From: Symbiobacterium thermophilum
Lineage (GTDB): Bacteria; Bacillota; Sulfobacillia; DYFQ01
Length of the DNA: 43,731 nucleotides
Reading direction: 5' to 3'
Assembly (NCBI GenBank): GCA_020725105.1
Contig: DYFQ01000024.1
Location: forward strand, 1-43,731
A model generated the notes under the pieces. The model did no database searches. It was not told the DNA's origin and saw only the letters and a list, made by a program, of their open reading frames with translations. Position 1 is the first letter of the stretch, and the number at the start of each line of letters is the position of its first letter. The position numbers and the translations under genes were made by a program. Of this stretch, positions 5,656 to 17,375 are shown piece by piece.

Positions 5656-5874
5656 TTACCGCTTCAGGCCTGGCGCCTCGACGAAGTCGGGCACCGCCAT
5701 GAGGATCGGCCTCGGCGGCGGCGGGTCGTAGACCCCGGTCGACCGCGGTGGCGGCGGGTCGTAAACGCCTGTCGCCCTCGGCGGCGGGGGATCGTACACC
5801 CCGGCGAGGACCCAGGTGGGCAGGGCCAGCGTCACCAGGGCGACCACCAGCAAGAAGGCGATCCACCGACGCAT
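5656..5874 (-). CDS. Exported small peptide precursor with three VYDPPPPR repeats
   Basis: A 72-residue protein: MRRW start, a hydrophobic signal segment ending in WVLA (predicted signal peptidase cut before GVYDP), then three near-identical units GVYDPPPPR separated by AT or ST, and a tail ending in APGLKR. The start ATG overlaps the TGA of the upstream TPR gene by one base (TGATG), and AAGGAGG lies nine bases before it. The arrangement (TPR gene, overlapping small exported peptide) matches rap-phr pairs of Bacillus. Arg ends each repeat, so trypsin-like cleavage would release three identical peptides. A peptide signal is inference; a cell-wall-interacting Pro-rich peptide is an alternative. 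I know of no named family for it. Confidence 0.75.
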   Translation of the reverse strand: MRRWIAFLLVVALVTLALPTWVLAGVYDPPPPRATGVYDPPPPRSTGVYDPPPPRPILMAVPDFVEAPGLKR

Positions 5875-6632
5875 CACGGCGCCCCTCCTTTCCTGATGCA
5901 CTCCGCCTCGCGCAACTCCGGTTCCATGCTGAGTTCCCTGAAGATGCCCTCCGCCCGGGCGGCCAGGTGGCGGGCCAGCCGGCGCCAGCCCTCCCCCTGG
6001 GCGACTTTGGCCAGCAGCAGGTGGACCGAGCCGACCTCGGCCATGTCCGACCGGTCCAGGGCCAGGTCCCAGGCCTCGCAACCCAGTCGCACCGCCCGCG
6101 ACGTGTCTCCCTCCAGCCGGGCGACCTCTCCCAGTTCCGTCAGGATCCGGTGCCTGTACGCTCCTGACGCGCCCGCGTAGGCGTGCTCCAGCAGGCGCCG
6201 GGCTTCCTCCAGCCGCCCCAGCCGGCGCATGGCGACGGCCAGGTTCTGGAGGGCGCCCACCTCCTCCGGAACCATGCCCAGTTCCCGGTAGGCGGCGAGC
6301 GCCCGCTTGCCCCACTCGATGGCCTCCCGGAGCCGGTCGGTGCGCACGGCGTGGGCGGCCATGCTCTGGTAAACCCAGGCCTCCCGGGGCCCGTCTCCCG
6401 CCGCGCGGGCAAGGTCGGCCGCCTGCCGGTACAGCGGCACCGCCCGGTCCCAGTGGCCGGTCCGGGCCAGGTTGACCGCTTTGAGGGCCAGAACTTCCCA
6501 CTCAAGCGCGGGCTGGCCGCTCACGTTGCCCGAGGCCAGGCGGGCCAGCGCCCGCAGGGCCCGCGTGGGGTGGCCCAGACGGGTAGCCTCGCGCGCCGCT
6601 TCGACAATCGTGGTGACGTCCCCCTTGGCCAT
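5874..6632 (-). CDS. TPR repeat protein (Rap-like arrangement, no HTH)
   Basis: A 252-residue, all-helical, soluble protein of tetratricopeptide repeats. Repeats are seen as A....G....A...Y..A patterns, for example LARTGHWDRAVPLYRQAADLA and TDRLREAIEWGKRALAAYRE, covering most of the length. No DNA-binding domain or enzyme motif is present. The ATG at 6632 is chosen because GGAGGG lies seven bases upstream; longer in-frame readings upstream have no coding look. TPR proteins of this size bind peptides or partner proteins. Because its stop overlaps the start of an exported repeat peptide, a Rap-type role (a receptor that the re-imported peptide regulates) is plausible but unproven. It could also be a shortened XRE-TPR regulator that has lost its HTH. 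Confidence 0.8.
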   Translation of the reverse strand: MAKGDVTTIVEAAREATRLGHPTRALRALARLASGNVSGQPALEWEVLALKAVNLARTGHWDRAVPLYRQAADLARAAGDGPREAWVYQSMAAHAVRTDRLREAIEWGKRALAAYRELGMVPEEVGALQNLAVAMRRLGRLEEARRLLEHAYAGASGAYRHRILTELGEVARLEGDTSRAVRLGCEAWDLALDRSDMAEVGSVHLLLAKVAQGEGWRRLARHLAARAEGIFRELSMEPELREAECIRKGGAP

Positions 6633-9083: not shown

Positions 9084-10259
9084 TCACCAGCCGATGCCAC
9101 GGCCGCGTAGTCCCGTTCGGAATAGCAGCTCAACGGTGACGTCCACCTCCAGATCGGGCCAGCCGTCGTGCCACCCCTCCGCCAGCCGTGGATCGATCCG
9201 GCGGAAGGTCTCGGCAAAGCCCAGCGGGTCCGCCCGCCAGTCCCGAAGCCGGTCGACGAGCCGCCGGACGGACTCTTCCATCGCCCGGGTCACCTTGGCC
9301 TGCCAGATCTCCGCCTCCGCCCTGGGTGACTCCGTCACCGGCAGCCCCTCGGTCACGATGGCCTCGGCCCGGAGGTTTATGGCCAGCCGCCTAGGCGCTA
9401 CCGAGGTGACCCTGACGGCCTTGCGGACCGATTTCAGCCGGATGGCCACGCTGTCGCCGGGGCCAGGCTCACCGGCGTCGGGGCCGGGCCTGGCAACGAA
9501 GACGTTCGACATGAACGCCCCGGGGAGGAACAACCCGAAGGCGGCGGCCTCCTCGTCCCTGAGGAGGCCGGCGAGCCGGTCACCGGAGAACACGGCAACG
9601 GCTTCGATCAAGTGGTTTCGCTCCAGGGCCGCCACGTAGGCGCACCAGGGGTCCCGGTGCGGCGCCACCAGGTAGTCGTAGAACCGCCAGAAGCGGAGGT
9701 TATGGGTGAGGGCCTGGCGGGGTTCCACCTGTTCGAAGGCGTCCTGCAGGTCCAGGACCTGGAAGCCCGACTCGTCGGAGGTGGCGGCCATGAGGTCTCT
9801 GGCCCTGCCCCGGGTCACCACGACCCAGACCTTCATGGGGAAGTCCGAGGCACGGATGAAGTAGTCAAGCCAGGGCCGGATCCCCTGGCGGGCCAGGTCC
9901 TCGCCGATGGCCAGGAGAGCCGAACTGCCGGTGTAGACCCGCCGGCCGATGCCCGGGTTGATGCCCAGGGTGGCCTCCTCGACGGTCCTGCCCGCGGAAG
10001 ACCGGACGATGAGCCGCCAGCCACCGGCGCCGCCGGCACCGCCGCCGGCGTTCCCCGCCCCGCCGCCCCCGGTGGCCCCCGCGGGCGCGGCAATGGCCAT
10101 CGAGACCTCCACCCGACCGGGCTCGTCAGCCGCGTCCAGTCCGACGGCCATGACGATCGCCCGGTCGTTGAGGTCCACCCGGTCCCGGCAACCCGTCAGC
10201 GCCAGTAACCCGGGGACCAGCAGCAGGGCCAGGGCCACCCGCGAGCGGCCGGCCTTCAT
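9084..10259 (-). CDS. gerC: Ger(x)C family spore germination lipoprotein
   Basis: A 391-residue GerC-type component of a nutrient germinant receptor in the inner spore membrane. The N-terminus is a lipoprotein signal ending in LTGCRDRVDLNDRAIVMAVGLD; LTGC is the lipobox, and the following NDRAIVMAVGLD-type segment is conserved in the family. Later family features include VTRGRARDLM and FPMKVWVVV. A Gly/Ala-rich insertion lies near residue 60. The start ATG overlaps the gerB stop (ATGA). The C-terminal region (AEIWQAKVTRAMEESVRRL..., LRDWRADPLGFAETFRR) matches GerC domain 3. Length is usual for the family. It works with the GerA and GerB products. Confidence 0.95.
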   Translation of the reverse strand: MKAGRSRVALALLLVPGLLALTGCRDRVDLNDRAIVMAVGLDAADEPGRVEVSMAIAAPAGATGGGGAGNAGGGAGGAGGWRLIVRSSAGRTVEEATLGINPGIGRRVYTGSSALLAIGEDLARQGIRPWLDYFIRASDFPMKVWVVVTRGRARDLMAATSDESGFQVLDLQDAFEQVEPRQALTHNLRFWRFYDYLVAPHRDPWCAYVAALERNHLIEAVAVFSGDRLAGLLRDEEAAAFGLFLPGAFMSNVFVARPGPDAGEPGPGDSVAIRLKSVRKAVRVTSVAPRRLAINLRAEAIVTEGLPVTESPRAEAEIWQAKVTRAMEESVRRLVDRLRDWRADPLGFAETFRRIDPRLAEGWHDGWPDLEVDVTVELLFRTGLRGRGIGW

Positions 10260-11344
10260 GGGTTCACCCGCTTTCCGCGCCGCAGCAGGAGGATGGCGGC
10301 GGGGAACACGAGTCCCACCACGTAACCCAGCAGCGACCAGCCAACCATCAGGGTTTCGCGCACCTGGGTCTGCAGGGGCAGCCGCAGGATGACAAAGGCC
10401 AGCCCCGCCAGGACGGGTACCAACCACCGGTGGTGCGGGAGGCGGAACAGGTCCGCGAACAGTGCCGCGGCCACGTAGAGGGTGGCCGCGACCACTACGA
10501 AGCCAATACCGTGCCAGATCAAGACGGTCACGAAAAGAGCGCTCTCCACGGGCAGGATGGTGATGGGGGAGGTGGCCATGGTCTCCAGACCCGGGTACTG
10601 CAGCGTTTTCAACGCCGCGTCGCTGAAGAGAAGGTGCGGGGTGGTGGTGATGACGCCCACCACCACCAGGGCAGCCAGGAGGCCGGCCAGCACGGGGCGG
10701 TGCACCCGCCGCCGGTAATCCAGGTAGGCGGCGTAAAGCGGCACCAGAAAGAAGCCCCGGATCCCCAGCACGTACGCCCACGTGGTGCCGTTGTAGAACG
10801 GGGCCGGGTCCGGCAGATCCACTGGTAGAAGCGCCCCGAGGCTGGCCTCGGCCAGCGGGATGACCAGGATCATGACCAGGCCGATCAGCAAAAACCAGCT
10901 AAAAGCCTCGGCAAAGCGGGCCACGACCTCCGGGCCCAGGTAGGCCGCGAAAGAGCTGATGCCCAAGGTCAACGCGGCGGGATACGCCGGCGAGGTCTCG
11001 GGAAGTTCCATCACCTCCAGTAGCTGGAGCATGGTGTCCAGGGTGCCCACGGGGCCCCAGAGGAAGACGTAGGTGGCCAGCAAGAACCCGTACACCCAAC
11101 CCAGCACCGGCCCCACCGCCCGCACCGAGAACCGACCGGCCGGTCCTGCCGCGAACCGCCTGGCCAGCGCCAGCGCCAGCAGCCCGCCGGCGCCGGTGAC
11201 CAGCCACTGTACCAGGTTGGCGACCCAGATGTGGCGGCCGAAGTCGTGATGGACGGCGGGAGAGCCAAAGGGCGTCAGGGAGATGGACGTCAAGGCCACC
11301 ACGACGAAGAGTTGCCACTGGGAAATCCGATAGGTGAAGGTCAT
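10256..11344 (-). CDS. gerB: GerB-type spore germination permease
   Basis: A 362-residue protein with ten predicted membrane helices, belonging to the GerB family of the amino acid-polyamine-organocation superfamily. It begins with the usual MTFTYRISQWQLFVVVAL segment and ends with a short basic tail (RRGKRVNP). In germinant receptors this subunit is thought to bind the nutrient. The ATG overlaps the gerA TGA, and its own TGA overlaps the gerC ATG, so all three are translationally coupled. Length is typical. Confidence 0.95.
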   Translation of the reverse strand: MTFTYRISQWQLFVVVALTSISLTPFGSPAVHHDFGRHIWVANLVQWLVTGAGGLLALALARRFAAGPAGRFSVRAVGPVLGWVYGFLLATYVFLWGPVGTLDTMLQLLEVMELPETSPAYPAALTLGISSFAAYLGPEVVARFAEAFSWFLLIGLVMILVIPLAEASLGALLPVDLPDPAPFYNGTTWAYVLGIRGFFLVPLYAAYLDYRRRVHRPVLAGLLAALVVVGVITTTPHLLFSDAALKTLQYPGLETMATSPITILPVESALFVTVLIWHGIGFVVVAATLYVAAALFADLFRLPHHRWLVPVLAGLAFVILRLPLQTQVRETLMVGWSLLGYVVGLVFPAAILLLRRGKRVNP

Positions 11345-12831
11345 GGCCCGTCCTGCCTCGCCCTGGAGCCGGTCCGCCTGGTGTCGGCGGCCCGCCAGGT
11401 CTGCGGTCGTCGCTCGATGGCCTGCCGCGACGGGGCGACGACCGAGTAGTGGACCAGGTCGTACCAGTTCAGGGGGGCAAAAGGCTTCAGGTACGGCACC
11501 CCGGCCGACTGGAGCGAGGCCAGGTGCACCAGCAGCGAGGCGAAGCCGGCCACCAGCCCGAAAGCGCCGAGGAACCCCGCCAGGACGGTGATGGGGTACT
11601 TCCAGATGCGGATCGCGAAGGACAGCGGGAAGTTGACGATGATCAGCGACCCGATGGCCGTGCCCGCCAGGACAATGATGACCAGGCTGCTGGCCAGCCT
11701 GGCGGTGACGGCGGCCTGGCCGATGATGAGGCTCCCGACGATGGTCAGGGTCTGCCCGAGTGGCCCCGGAGCCTGCATGGCCGCCTGCTGCACCAAGTCC
11801 TGCAGCAACAGGAGCACCAGGATCTCACCGAGTACCGGGTAGGGTACCCCTTCCCGGGTCACGGCCACCGTGACTGCCAGGGGGGTAGGCAGGATCTGCG
11901 GGTTCACCGCCAGGAGCGCTGCGTACGTGGCGGGGCCCAGCACGGCCAGCAAAGTCCCCGCCGCCCGGAGGAACCGGGCGAAGAGGCGGTTGAGGGGGCC
12001 CTGCAGGAAGCCCTCGCTGTCCTTCTGAAGCTCCACCAGGGTGGTCGGAACGATCAGGGCGAAGGGAGAGCCGTCAACCAGCACGGCGACCCTGCCGTTC
12101 ATCAGGGCCCTGGCAACCCGTACGGGCCGCTCGGTGAGTTGCCCCAGGGGGAAGGGCGTCAGCGTCCGGCCAAACAGAAGCTCCGACAGGACCGAGGCGT
12201 CGTCAACCCAGTCAATGTCGAGGGACTTCAACCCCTCCCGCACCTCGTGCAGGATCTCCCGGTTGGTGACGTCCTTGACGGAAAGCACGGCCACCTTGGT
12301 CCGGGAGCGGCGCCCGATTTCCAGCTGTTCGATCCGGAGTTCCTCGACCGGCAACCGGGAGCGGACCAGGTTCAGGTTGACCCGGAGTTGCTCGACGAAG
12401 GCGTATTTGGGCCCGAGCAGCGTCTGCTCGGTGCTGGGCTCGGGGACGTCTCTCGCGGCGGGATGGAACAGGTCAAAGGTGCAGGCCAGCGGCGCGCCGT
12501 CTACAAACACGGCGGCCCAGCCGTCGAGGACCTTGCGTTTGATCTCGGAAAGCGACTCCGCCGGCTCGCCCATCGAGAGGACCCGCCGGATGGCCTTCGG
12601 GTCGGGAGCCGCGTCAACCAGCGGCCGCACCACGTCTTCTCGGAGGCGGCGGCGGTCCACCACCGAGTCGAGGTAGGCCACGGCAGCCTCTCGCCCGCCG
12701 TCAAGCCGGAGCCGCAGCCACTTGAGTTCCGAAGGCGACAGCGCCGCGTCGAGGGCGCGTATCCAGTCCGACCACTTGCGCTTCGACTTCCACCAGCCAA
12801 ACACCTTGCGCTCTGACGCCTCCCCGGACAC
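11341..12831 (-). CDS. gerA: GerA-type spore germination protein
   Basis: A 496-residue GerA family subunit of a germinant receptor. The N-terminal half is a soluble cytoplasmic domain; the conserved core includes GRVAVLVDGSPFALIVPTTLVE (about residue 250) and EDF-like segments. The C-terminal half has about five membrane helices. It starts at a GTG with GAGGGG close upstream; a later in-frame GTG (VFGWWK) is an alternative. About 25 bases upstream the minus strand reads AATACTA (12862-12856), six of seven bases of the sigma-G/sigma-F -10 consensus CATNNTA, but the -35 match is poor. Forespore expression would fit the operon's role. Confidence 0.95.
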   Translation of the reverse strand: MSGEASERKVFGWWKSKRKWSDWIRALDAALSPSELKWLRLRLDGGREAAVAYLDSVVDRRRLREDVVRPLVDAAPDPKAIRRVLSMGEPAESLSEIKRKVLDGWAAVFVDGAPLACTFDLFHPAARDVPEPSTEQTLLGPKYAFVEQLRVNLNLVRSRLPVEELRIEQLEIGRRSRTKVAVLSVKDVTNREILHEVREGLKSLDIDWVDDASVLSELLFGRTLTPFPLGQLTERPVRVARALMNGRVAVLVDGSPFALIVPTTLVELQKDSEGFLQGPLNRLFARFLRAAGTLLAVLGPATYAALLAVNPQILPTPLAVTVAVTREGVPYPVLGEILVLLLLQDLVQQAAMQAPGPLGQTLTIVGSLIIGQAAVTARLASSLVIIVLAGTAIGSLIIVNFPLSFAIRIWKYPITVLAGFLGAFGLVAGFASLLVHLASLQSAGVPYLKPFAPLNWYDLVHYSVVAPSRQAIERRPQTWRAADTRRTGSRARQDGP

Positions 12832-12973: not shown

Positions 12974-13675
12974 CTAGTCCGACCCGTCTTCGTCCGCAGG
13001 GTCCGTCACGATGACCATCTCGTTCTCGGCGTCCCAGTCGACGTTGGCCCGCAGGGCCTGGGCGATGAACCGGAGCGGGACCATGGTCCGGTTGTTAACC
13101 AGCGTGGCCGGCACGCCAAGCTCTACTGGCTCGCCGTTGACGTAGGCCGTGGTCTCACCCAGGGTCAGCACCACGGTGACGTCGCCCTTGACCACCGTCA
13201 CGGTCTTGGTCTCCGGGTCCCAGCTGACCTCCGCCTTCAGGCCCTGTGCCAGGGCCCGGAAGGGAATCAGCGTCCTGCCCTCCCTGATAACCGGCGGTAC
13301 GTCCATCTGAGGCCGGCGACCCTTGACGTAGACCAGGATCTCCTGGTGCCGGAGCTGCTCGCGGAACAACCGGCCCAGCCCCTTGTAGGCCTCCACGTCC
13401 TTGGGATCCTCGGCCAGCGCTTCTTCCAGCGCCGCGACGGCTTCCTCGGCCTTGCCAACCTGCTTGTAGGCGTCGGCCAGTGCCTTGAGCGCCTTGGAGC
13501 GGTCTTTGCCCTTGGGCGGCAGGTTCTCATGGAGTTGGGCGATTCGTCCCATGACCTGGTCCAGCGTCTCCTCGGCCTTCTGGCCGGGGGCCGCCGCCGG
13601 CTGGGCATACCCCAGGGAGGTCGCCAGCAGCAGGACCCCCAGGGCCAGCGCGACCACTCGGGAAACACGACGCAT
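12974..13675 (-). CDS. Secreted protein with TPR segment and copper-amine-oxidase-type stalk domain
   Basis: A 233-residue exported protein. A signal peptide (cut near GYAQ) is followed by a short helical TPR segment (about residues 50-115, with KALKALADAYKQVGKAEEAV and ALAEDPKDVEAYKGLG). The C-terminal 115 residues form a copper amine oxidase N-terminal-like stalk domain (VPPVIREGRTLIPFRALAQ, then GEPVELGVPATLVNNRTMVP and VPLRFIAQALRANVDWD). This domain is common in cell-surface proteins of spore-forming Bacillota and has no catalytic role. The tail is acidic (DPADEDGSD). The ATG at 13675 has GGAAGGAGG ten bases upstream; a longer in-frame reading lacks a ribosome site. Confidence 0.85.
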   Translation of the reverse strand: MRRVSRVVALALGVLLLATSLGYAQPAAAPGQKAEETLDQVMGRIAQLHENLPPKGKDRSKALKALADAYKQVGKAEEAVAALEEALAEDPKDVEAYKGLGRLFREQLRHQEILVYVKGRRPQMDVPPVIREGRTLIPFRALAQGLKAEVSWDPETKTVTVVKGDVTVVLTLGETTAYVNGEPVELGVPATLVNNRTMVPLRFIAQALRANVDWDAENEMVIVTDPADEDGSD

Positions 13676-13849
13676 CGGTCGATCCTCCTTCCAGCCGGCT
13701 CCGCGCGGCTGAATTCTTGCCTTCTGCCCTACCATTCGAACCGGAGCGGAAAGTTTCGGGGGGTTCCGCGGGCGGGGTATCCTGAAGCGGGCCGGGGGCG
13801 CTGGTCAAGGGCGGCGAGAGGTTCGCTCATGCGGGCCCGAAAATGAAGA

Positions 13850-13877
13850 GACCCCAGCCCGATACCTGGCTGGGGTC
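13850..13877 (-). terminator. Rho-independent terminator of the DDDPPP peptide gene
   Basis: A perfect 10-bp stem, GACCCCAGCC with GGCTGGGGTC, with an 8-base loop. On the minus strand it is followed by TCTTCATTTT, a T-rich tail. It lies about 90 bases beyond the stop of the small peptide gene and closes a single-gene unit. Confidence 0.7.
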
Positions 13878-13968: not shown

Positions 13969-14118
13969 TTACCAGCCATCCGCGGGCGGGGGGTCGTCAT
14001 CAACCACCAGGAAGCTTGGTCCCTCCGTCCGGGTAGCAAGACCTCCTGCCACCGGAGCGAAGGCGAAGACGGCCAGCAGCACCAGACTGATCCCCCACAG
14101 CAGCACGCGCCGCGCCAT
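13969..14118 (-). CDS. Exported small peptide precursor ending in DDDPPPADGW
   Basis: A 49-residue protein: MARR start, a hydrophobic signal segment (residues 5-26), a likely signal-peptidase cut after GLA (about 28), and a short mature part ending in VVDDDPPPADGW. The ATG has a perfect AGGAGGTGA ribosome site seven bases upstream. A sigma-H-like promoter lies 30-60 bases upstream and a T-tailed terminator lies downstream, so it is a complete single-gene unit. It is divergent from an XRE-TPR regulator gene. Sigma-H promoters also drive many phr pheromone genes in Bacillus. The acidic D-P-P-P core recurs in the YDPPPP repeats of the other small exported protein in this window. A pheromone role is inference. 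Confidence 0.78.
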   Translation of the reverse strand: MARRVLLWGISLVLLAVFAFAPVAGGLATRTEGPSFLVVDDDPPPADGW

Positions 14119-14149
14119 CCGTTCTCACCTCCTCTCTGCACGGTGGACA

Positions 14150-14176
14150 GAATTCAAGGGAACGCGGCTAAATCCT
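14150..14176 (-). promoter_or_regulatory. Sigma-H-like promoter of the DDDPPP peptide gene
   Basis: On the minus strand AGGATTT (14176..14170), 11 bases, then CTTGAATTC (14158..14150). This matches the sigma-H (Spo0H) consensus RnAGGAwww, N11-12, RnnGAATww at every core base, with mismatches only at the flanking R positions and the final w. The predicted start is about 25-30 bases before the peptide ATG. Confidence 0.6.
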
Positions 14177-14181
14177 TGAAG

Positions 14182-14203
14182 ACTGTTTACGATAGCGGAC
14201 AAC
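14182..14203 (+). promoter_or_regulatory. Two-block element, copy 1 (peptide/regulator intergenic region)
   Basis: Reads ACTGTTTACG, three to four bases, GCGGACA. The same two blocks recur at 15725-15747 in front of the HD-GYP gene with one mismatch. It lies immediately upstream of the sigma-H-like promoter of the peptide gene and about 135 bases upstream of the regulator gene. An inverted copy of the TGTTTAC core (GTAAACA, 14302-14308) lies nearer the regulator start. It may be an operator for the XRE-TPR regulator. Confidence 0.5.
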
Positions 14204-14337
14204 GGAACAGCTGGAGAGCGTCACCGGGTCCCACGCGGAGGACGCTAGAAAGAACTGAAGGACCGCGACATCTGTACGGCGAACCGGCGTTCCGGTATGC
14301 TGTAAACAACGCGTTCGACATATGGGAGGGCTACGCC

Positions 14338-15687
14338 GTGGAAACGCTGGCGGAAAAGCTCAAGAACCTGATGGGCTGGAACCTTTCCGACCGTTCCCGC
14401 CGGCTGTCGCTGCGGGAAGTCGCCAGGGGCACGGGGCTGTCCCACTCGTACCTTTGGATGCTGGTCTCCGGAGCCCGCGACAACCCCACGGCCGACGTGC
14501 TGGAACGGCTGTCCCACTACTTCGGTACTGACATCAGCTACTTCCACGAGACTCGGGGGCCGGGTTCCGAAGGTGCGCAGTTCCGCGGGAGGCTGGTGGA
14601 GGTCCGCGCGCTGATTCACCGGGCAGAGACCGACGGACCCGAGGAACTGGGCCCCGAGCTGGAGGAAGCCTGGGAACTGGTCTGCCGAGCCGGCCCCGCT
14701 GAACTGGCCGTTCGCGTCGCCCTGGCCTACTGCCGCTGCCTTCGTAGCCAGAAGGCATATCCGAAAGGCGAAGCGGTGTTGCGGCAGCTCAGCGGACGGT
14801 GGCTAGGGAAGCTGCCGCTTGACTACGAGATCCGGGTGCAGTTTCAGTTTGCCGTCCTGGCTTACGAGCAGGCCCGGTACTTTGAGGCCGTAGAGCGGAT
14901 GGAAACCTGCCTGGAACGGATCGAGAGCGCGGGACACCAGACCCCCCTTCTTGAAGACGTCTGGTACAATCTGGGGATCTACTACCGGCGGGTAGGCCGG
15001 CCGGAGGATTCGGTCCGGGCGTACCTGCGGGCTCGCGAGCTTCACCCCGATGACAGTGGGCAGCGACTCGCCTTCATCCACATGGGGCTCGGACAGGCCT
15101 ACCGCGACTGCAGGCGCTACGAAGAATCACTGGAGCATTTGCTGGGGGCGCTGGAGATCCTGACCGAGCTGGGCGACGCCAAGTGGGCCGGGGCGGTCTG
15201 CAACAACCTGGGCGATACCCTGTGTGAACTCGGTCGCTGGCGTGAAGCCAGGGCCCGGTACGAAGCGGGGCTGCTGGCCCACAGAATGGTCCGCTACGAG
15301 AGGGGCGCCGGGCTGAACCTCGCCGGCATCGCCCGCTGCCAGCTGGAGCTCGGCGACCCGGCCAAGGCCCTGTCCACCGTCAACCAGGCTTTGTCCCTGC
15401 TGGCGCAACTGGGCGAAAAGCCCGACTGGGCCGACGCGCTGCTGGTCCGGGCCCGTGTGTACACGGCCCTCGAGGAGTGGGACAAGGCCCGCGCTGACCT
15501 GGAGAAGGCCAAGACCTGCTTCCACGAGGGCAGGATGGTGCCCCACCTGCTGCGGGCCATCGCCGTGGAGGCGGAACTTGACAGCCGGATGGGCGCCCTC
15601 GAGGACGGGGCCGAACGGCTGCGGCGATCGGCTGAAGTCGTCCGCGGCCTGGCCGACTGGGTACGGACCGTCGGCCGGGCGGCCTGA
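14338..15687 (+). CDS. XRE-family HTH + TPR regulator (RRNPP-like)
   Basis: A 449-residue regulator. Residues 5-65 form a helix-turn-helix of the XRE type (LSLREVARGTGLSHSYLWML, then NPTADVLERLSHYF). The rest is a run of TPR-like helical pairs, clearest from about residue 190 (YFEAVERMETCLERIE, RYEESLEHLLGALEILTELG, RWREARARYEAGLLAH and EWDKARADLEKAKTCFHEG). An XRE HTH fused to C-terminal TPRs is the layout of PlcR, NprR and related RRNPP peptide receptors. The GTG start has GGGAGGG seven bases upstream; the open frame runs further up but without a ribosome site. It is divergent from the small exported peptide gene, and upstream of an HD-GYP gene. Ligand identity is inferred only. Confidence 0.85.
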   Translation: METLAEKLKNLMGWNLSDRSRRLSLREVARGTGLSHSYLWMLVSGARDNPTADVLERLSHYFGTDISYFHETRGPGSEGAQFRGRLVEVRALIHRAETDGPEELGPELEEAWELVCRAGPAELAVRVALAYCRCLRSQKAYPKGEAVLRQLSGRWLGKLPLDYEIRVQFQFAVLAYEQARYFEAVERMETCLERIESAGHQTPLLEDVWYNLGIYYRRVGRPEDSVRAYLRARELHPDDSGQRLAFIHMGLGQAYRDCRRYEESLEHLLGALEILTELGDAKWAGAVCNNLGDTLCELGRWREARARYEAGLLAHRMVRYERGAGLNLAGIARCQLELGDPAKALSTVNQALSLLAQLGEKPDWADALLVRARVYTALEEWDKARADLEKAKTCFHEGRMVPHLLRAIAVEAELDSRMGALEDGAERLRRSAEVVRGLADWVRTVGRAA

Positions 15688-16964: not shown

Positions 16965-17016
16965 TTGCAACCGGGAACAGAGTTGCATATAATGCTCACA
17001 TAAGTGAATGTCACTT
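16965..17016 (+). promoter_or_regulatory. Strong sigma-A-type promoter with two dyads, opposing the XRE gene
   Basis: TTGCAA (16965-16970), exactly 17 bases, then a perfect TATAAT (16988-16993). The spacer contains the dyad TGCAAC-N10-GTTGCA (16966-16987). A second perfect dyad, AAGTGAATGTCACTT (17002-17016), sits at the predicted start point. It fires rightward, between two convergent genes, into the antisense strand of the XRE gene. The first sense gene downstream starts at 17492. Confidence 0.6.
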
Positions 17017-17375
17017 TACTCCAGACGGTTTCGGCGCAGGGCCGCGGCCTTGACTTCCAGGTAGGCGAGGATCTCCTCCCGGACCTCCTGCCTGGCCTGG
17101 GGTGAGAGGCCCTCGGTGGCCCGGTAGAAGGCCTGGACCAGCGGATCCGTCGCCTCGCCCGCGTTGTCCAGGTAGCCGGCGGCGTGCAGGAGTTCGGTGT
17201 AGGGGACTTTCAGCGCGGGGGCCAGGCGGGCAAGGATCGCGGGCGACGGGGCGGACCTGGCACCCCGCTCCACCATGGACAGGTAGGAATTGGACACCCG
17301 GGAGTACAGGGCCAGCTGGCGGATGGTCAGTCCCCGCCGCTGGCGGAGTTGTCGCAAGTATTCTCCAAAAGTCAC
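17016..17375 (-). CDS. XRE-family HTH transcriptional regulator
   Basis: A 119-residue protein with an XRE helix-turn-helix at residues 3-58 (YLRQLRQRRGLTIRQLALYS, then RVSNSYLSMVERG and PSPAILARLAPALKVPYTEL). This is close to the DNA-binding part of SinR/Xre-like repressors. The C-terminal 55 residues are helical and charged (ATEGLSPQARQEVREEILAY) and may mediate dimerisation. It has no TPR segment. Starts with GTG; GGGAGCGAG lies upstream. Its stop codon overlaps the dyad at 17002-17016. The opposing promoter at 16965 would make RNA antisense to this gene. Confidence 0.88.
   Translation of the reverse strand: MTFGEYLRQLRQRRGLTIRQLALYSRVSNSYLSMVERGARSAPSPAILARLAPALKVPYTELLHAAGYLDNAGEATDPLVQAFYRATEGLSPQARQEVREEILAYLEVKAAALRRNRLE

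Follow-up and report, generated by a model that had tools for sequence, protein, structure and literature searches.

We found a divergent pair of genes, one for a 49-aa propeptide with an export leader and the other for a 449-aa regulator with an HTH and TPRs, which probably adds one more case to the established RRNPP-type design of secreted peptide and internal receptor. We consider it likely that the two are a quorum-sensing peptide and its receptor. The window, as we call the whole stretch of 43,731 bp analyzed here, corresponds to contig C38 in a draft genome of 2.74 Mb, whose class is taken to be that of Sulfobacillus acidophilus. The pair comprises the following features:

13969..14118, minus strand: exported propeptide gene, a 49-aa ORF (MARRVLLWGISLVLLAVFAFAPVAGGLATRTEGPSFLVVDDDPPPADGW) recognized by its reading frame, Shine-Dalgarno site, codon-position GC and a shuffle test
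14125..14133, minus strand: Shine-Dalgarno site of the peptide gene, AGGAGGTGA, with 9/9 bases matched
13850..13877, minus strand: hairpin of the intrinsic terminator that follows the peptide gene, 10 pairs, tail TCTTCATTTT, with the T-rich tail at 13840-13849
14150..14178, minus strand: candidate sigma-H-like promoter, CAAGGATTT-N11-CTTGAATTC, containing the string AGGATTT-N11-CTTGAATTC at 14150-14176
14147..14186, no strand: inverted repeat and possible operator, ACAGAATTCAAGG / CCTTGAAGACTGT, with 13-nt arms and a 14-nt gap
14338..15687, plus strand: regulator with an HTH and nine TPRs (P0002), putative peptide receptor of 449 aa, based on Pfam, an AlphaFold2 model and Foldseek

The propeptide has a positively charged and hydrophobic N-terminus resembling a signal peptide, with an RR n-region and a hydrophobic core whose 12-residue Kyte-Doolittle mean is 2.88 (export was judged by eye), and its C-terminus, FLVVDDDPPPADGW, is acidic and proline-rich. 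GC contents at the three codon positions are alike in the peptide ORF (0.76/0.52/0.74) and the regulator (0.73/0.47/0.83). The 601-bp region was submitted to 4,000 dinucleotide shuffles, in which a small ORF with a hydrophobic leader and a Shine-Dalgarno match of at least 5 appeared in 0.5% of cases, and one with a match of at least 7 in none (0/4,000). Together with the complete Shine-Dalgarno match and the terminator hairpin (fold z = -3.2), these results bear out the 49-residue precursor with a perfect ribosome site and a T-tailed terminator that had been proposed. No homologue of the peptide was found, and the class genomes compared include no close relative of this genome.

The regulator likely starts at the GTG at 14338, preceded by the RBS GGGAGG at 14324-14329, and stops at 15687; a start at 13843, as in the mechanical ORF, which overlaps the peptide gene on the opposite strand, is unlikely. 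Pfam matches include HTH_3 (2.8e-7), TPR_12 (2.2e-28) and many TPR models. In the AlphaFold2 model, built from 27 aligned sequences (mean pLDDT 87.5), the HTH is followed by 18 helices, predicted to form nine TPRs. Among 50 listed PDB matches from Foldseek, the best TM-scores belong to RapJ-CSF (4gyo, 0.57/0.70), NprR (5dbk, 0.57/0.69) and RapI (4i1a, 0.56/0.68); these values for Rap and NprR are moderate, and by E-value the eukaryotic LGN TPRs rank first. A profile of the divergent receptors of the class matches PlcR collinearly from the HTH through the TPRs (E=4.4e-17). RNPP_C (PF18768) has no match in P0002 up to E=0.01 and is present in 5 of the 27 aligned relatives (best 9.8e-13). Named close relatives of the regulator were sought in a single scan of genome contigs, which returned distant generic TPR matches only; P0002 has no match in phages, and in plasmids only generic TPR matches. 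Its branch in the class tree is long.

The architectures of nine-TPR HTH receptors and of five-TPR PlcR are described in PMC12700828. As the model has an HTH and nine TPRs, not five, NprR-like is the better label for the predicted receptor than PlcR-like. The original prediction had compared the protein with both PlcR and NprR, and the NprR half of the comparison is the one that agrees with the model. According to the five-criterion RRNPP signature of PMC10075063, propeptides have 10-100 aa and are Sec-secreted, receptors have 250-500 aa with TPRs, and the two genes are direct neighbors, at a default distance of -60 to 400 bp. The propeptide and the regulator fall within these sizes, the TPRs are detected by Pfam as well as in the model, and the two start codons are 219 bp apart in divergent orientation.

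The peptide gene had also been assigned a sigma-H promoter. Scored against the consensus RnAGGAwWW-N11-12-RnnGAATww, the candidate matches 12 of 15 informative positions (local shuffle p = 0.013, in one of 29 regions tested). The pattern AGGAWWW-N14-15-GAATW occurs at only 5 sites in the 2.74-Mb genome and at 0 in the reversed control, and SigH and Spo0A are both encoded. We give somewhat less than an even chance to the reading that the sigma-H-like sequence is primarily the operator of the regulator, with the peptide gene transcribed from another type of promoter. The perfect 7+7 repeat TTCAAGG-N14-CCTTGAA, which extends to 13-nt arms with 11/13 matches, encloses both the -35 and the -10 element, and the 28 further peptide genes examined all lack a significant sigma-H-like site, both of which favor an operator. 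However, the repeat is borderline (p=0.076), no dyad enrichment was detected in the intergenic regions of relatives, and the other four genomic sites of the sigma-H pattern (C4:41323, C30:29568, C36:33012 and C39:15467) each lie 25-205 bp upstream of a start with a Shine-Dalgarno site, on the right strand. Operator and promoter can also hold together, and the operator concerns the promoter claim only, being compatible with an RRNPP pair. From the sequence, a sigma-H promoter of the peptide gene is thus plausible but weak: the string is present, but the other peptide genes have no significant match to the pattern, and the string coincides with the inverted repeat. As to the proposed link with sporulation, nothing ties the pair to it beyond the organism having sporulation genes.

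To see whether the arrangement exceeds chance, we ran profile searches for HTH-TPR and TPR loci in 154 genomes of the same class and scanned 109 of the loci obtained. Peptide ORFs were defined strictly, by a start codon, a Shine-Dalgarno match of at least 5, a hydrophobic leader, short length and a non-membrane tail, with divergent ORFs taken within about 310 bp. A divergent exported small ORF is found at 17 of the 109 regulator loci against 0.56 expected from shuffles of the same regions, an excess of about 30-fold, and an exported small ORF just downstream at 10 of the 109 against 0.16; these fractions are not a prevalence, since the loci are not independent, several coming from sister species, and since paired receptors were the seeds of the second search. 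One counted ORF (G081) may be spurious. In one well-supported clade, comprising 30 orthologous regulators, no exported small ORF was detected, which provides an internal negative control. Many HTH-TPR regulators of the class have no detectable neighbor peptide. The synteny expected for the divergent pair is found at the level of the arrangement, which recurs in the class, and not of the exact genes. Gene anatomy and this recurrence sustain the central claim that an exported small peptide gene is paired with an HTH-TPR regulator.

Several peptides of the relatives are built from repeated units. Divergent precursors of this kind occur in four related genomes, with an ADLMGPEIPEL-like unit four times in G147, ADLMGPG(I/V)PDMW twice each in G022 and G055, and LADWMGPGVLD twice in G148. 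Precursors of the ADLMGPG/EIPEL type, with 2-4 copies and divergent from an HTH-TPR receptor, were observed at loci L151, L152, L153 and L089, in two related genera. Exported precursors directly downstream of an HTH-TPR gene repeat SPVLPPDEY at L112 (G049) and L181 (G078), and the one at L158 (G076) ends in PVLPPDEY. G122, G134, G128 and G114 share the C-terminal P-(S/T)-DVTxPGV, although the leader of G122 is strongly different. Across 23 selected tails, P (20%), G (12%) and D (10%) are abundant, and the motifs DPG, NPG and DPP occur in peptide tails of the class. Multi-copy precursors are described as common in AimR, NprR, Rap and PlcR systems (PMC9765709; see also PMC11343458). Repeated units and conservation mainly at the C-terminus are both typical of pheromone precursors.

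The small exported peptide could instead be an effector, bacteriocin-like or associated with the envelope or the spore, that is controlled by the HTH-TPR protein and is not its ligand. Divergent regulator-target pairs are common, an extracellular role is conceivable for a product of 49 aa, and the peptide gene forms a single cistron with its own terminator. We nevertheless regard an effector as unlikely, because receptors of one type have peptide partners in either orientation, divergent or co-directional, because the release of short peptides would agree with the repeat precursors and the conserved C-termini, and because the peptide has no bacteriocin-type Pfam or NCBIfam match. It is very improbable that the small ORF is no true gene, or has nothing to do with the HTH-TPR regulator beside it, an ordinary one sensing something else: the missing peptide homologue, the long branch of the regulator and the many class regulators without an adjacent peptide would agree with it, against which stand the shuffle result, the coding-like base composition, the terminator and the excess of the arrangement in relatives.

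For the favored pair of signal and receptor, we infer export, maturation, re-import, binding, a DNA target and a direction of regulation. Sec would export the propeptide, and its cleavage would release a short C-terminal peptide from somewhere within FLVVDDDPPPADGW. An oligopeptide permease would then bring this peptide back into the cell, where it would bind to the nine-TPR domain in its concave groove; the genome encodes at least 15 SBP_bac_5 oligopeptide-binding proteins. As a result, the N-terminal HTH would bind DNA differently in the divergent promoter region that the two genes share, and probably at other sites too.

Besides the peptide gene of the divergent pair, a strict scan of the window for free-standing exported small ORFs found only the one at 5656-5874, other matches being inside longer ORFs. 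It belongs to a second module:

5656..5874, minus strand: second candidate propeptide, 72 aa, exported, with GVYDPPPPR three times
5875..6632, minus strand: TPR-only protein in which no HTH was found; its stop overlaps the propeptide ATG (TGATG)

All codon differences among the GVYDPPPPR copies are synonymous, numbering 6, 3 and 4 when the copies are compared two by two. The layout of this module resembles Rap-Phr, and as a pheromone candidate it is perhaps stronger than the divergent pair. When the other TPR and HTH genes in this genome were searched for neighboring exported small ORFs, one weak candidate only was obtained, at L222:870-1118 (G000:C33), where an 82-aa exported ORF with a 9-base Shine-Dalgarno site lies near another TPR gene and could be a further pair.

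Other genes surround the divergent pair. Downstream of the terminator of the peptide gene, 12974-13735 (minus strand) encodes a protein that combines TPRs with the N-terminal domain of copper amine oxidases. It is unlikely to be the partner of the peptide; given this domain and its signal-peptide-like start, a role as cytoplasmic receptor is improbable. Spore germination genes are present at 9084-12831 on the minus strand (GerA 1.2e-124, Spore_permease 4.2e-22), and a small HTH protein is encoded at 17016-17375 on the same strand (HTH_3 6.5e-14), with SlrR, below cut-off, as the closest NCBIfam model.

The class-wide repertoire around the pair is a more interesting result than the pair alone. 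The finding would extend peptide quorum sensing of the RRNPP type to the Sulfobacillus acidophilus class, which offers many peptide-receptor pairs for testing. It is possible, though rather doubtful, that both modules of the window are part of a class-wide undescribed RRNPP-type repertoire, with acidic proline-rich 'DP' peptides, tandem-repeat precursors and many divergent pairs, that is old enough to help root RRNPPA, and that the modules may cross-talk via their shared DPPP motif. Sulfobacillus and Thermaerobacter are not named in the main text of any RRNPP survey searched, although the supplementary tables may list them. PMC12700828 leaves open if the ancestor of RRNPPA receptors carried five TPRs or nine; the receptors of this class could help to root the RRNPPA tree.

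Among known systems, NprR-NprX of the Bacillus cereus group (RRNPPA clan B) shares with our pair an HTH followed by nine TPRs, here in the predicted model, and an adjacent exported propeptide. The gene order of nprR and nprX is co-directional, whereas our pair is divergent, with an acidic proline-rich peptide and 17% identity in the structural alignment. Rap-Phr of Bacillus has the nine-TPR fold and a short exported precursor, and phr genes are linked to sigma-H promoters, the type proposed before our peptide gene. However, Rap proteins have no HTH, and their co-directional layout with Phr is nearer to the module at 5656-6632 than to the divergent pair. PlcR-PapR also combines an HTH-TPR transcription factor with an exported peptide, and the profile of divergent receptors is collinear with 2qfc, but PlcR has five TPRs (PMC12700828), unlike the nine of the P0002 model, and P0002 lacks an RNPP_C match. 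AloR-AloP of Paenibacillus and AimR-AimP of phages likewise have nine-TPR receptors and exported peptides, with a DPG motif reported in their mature peptides (PMC12700828). Short ORFs directly follow aloR (PMC7425212), in contrast to our divergent pair, and AimR-AimP are phage systems, while P0002 has no phage match. The TPR motifs of AloR and AimR are described as degenerate, whereas those of the class receptors are well detected by Pfam models.
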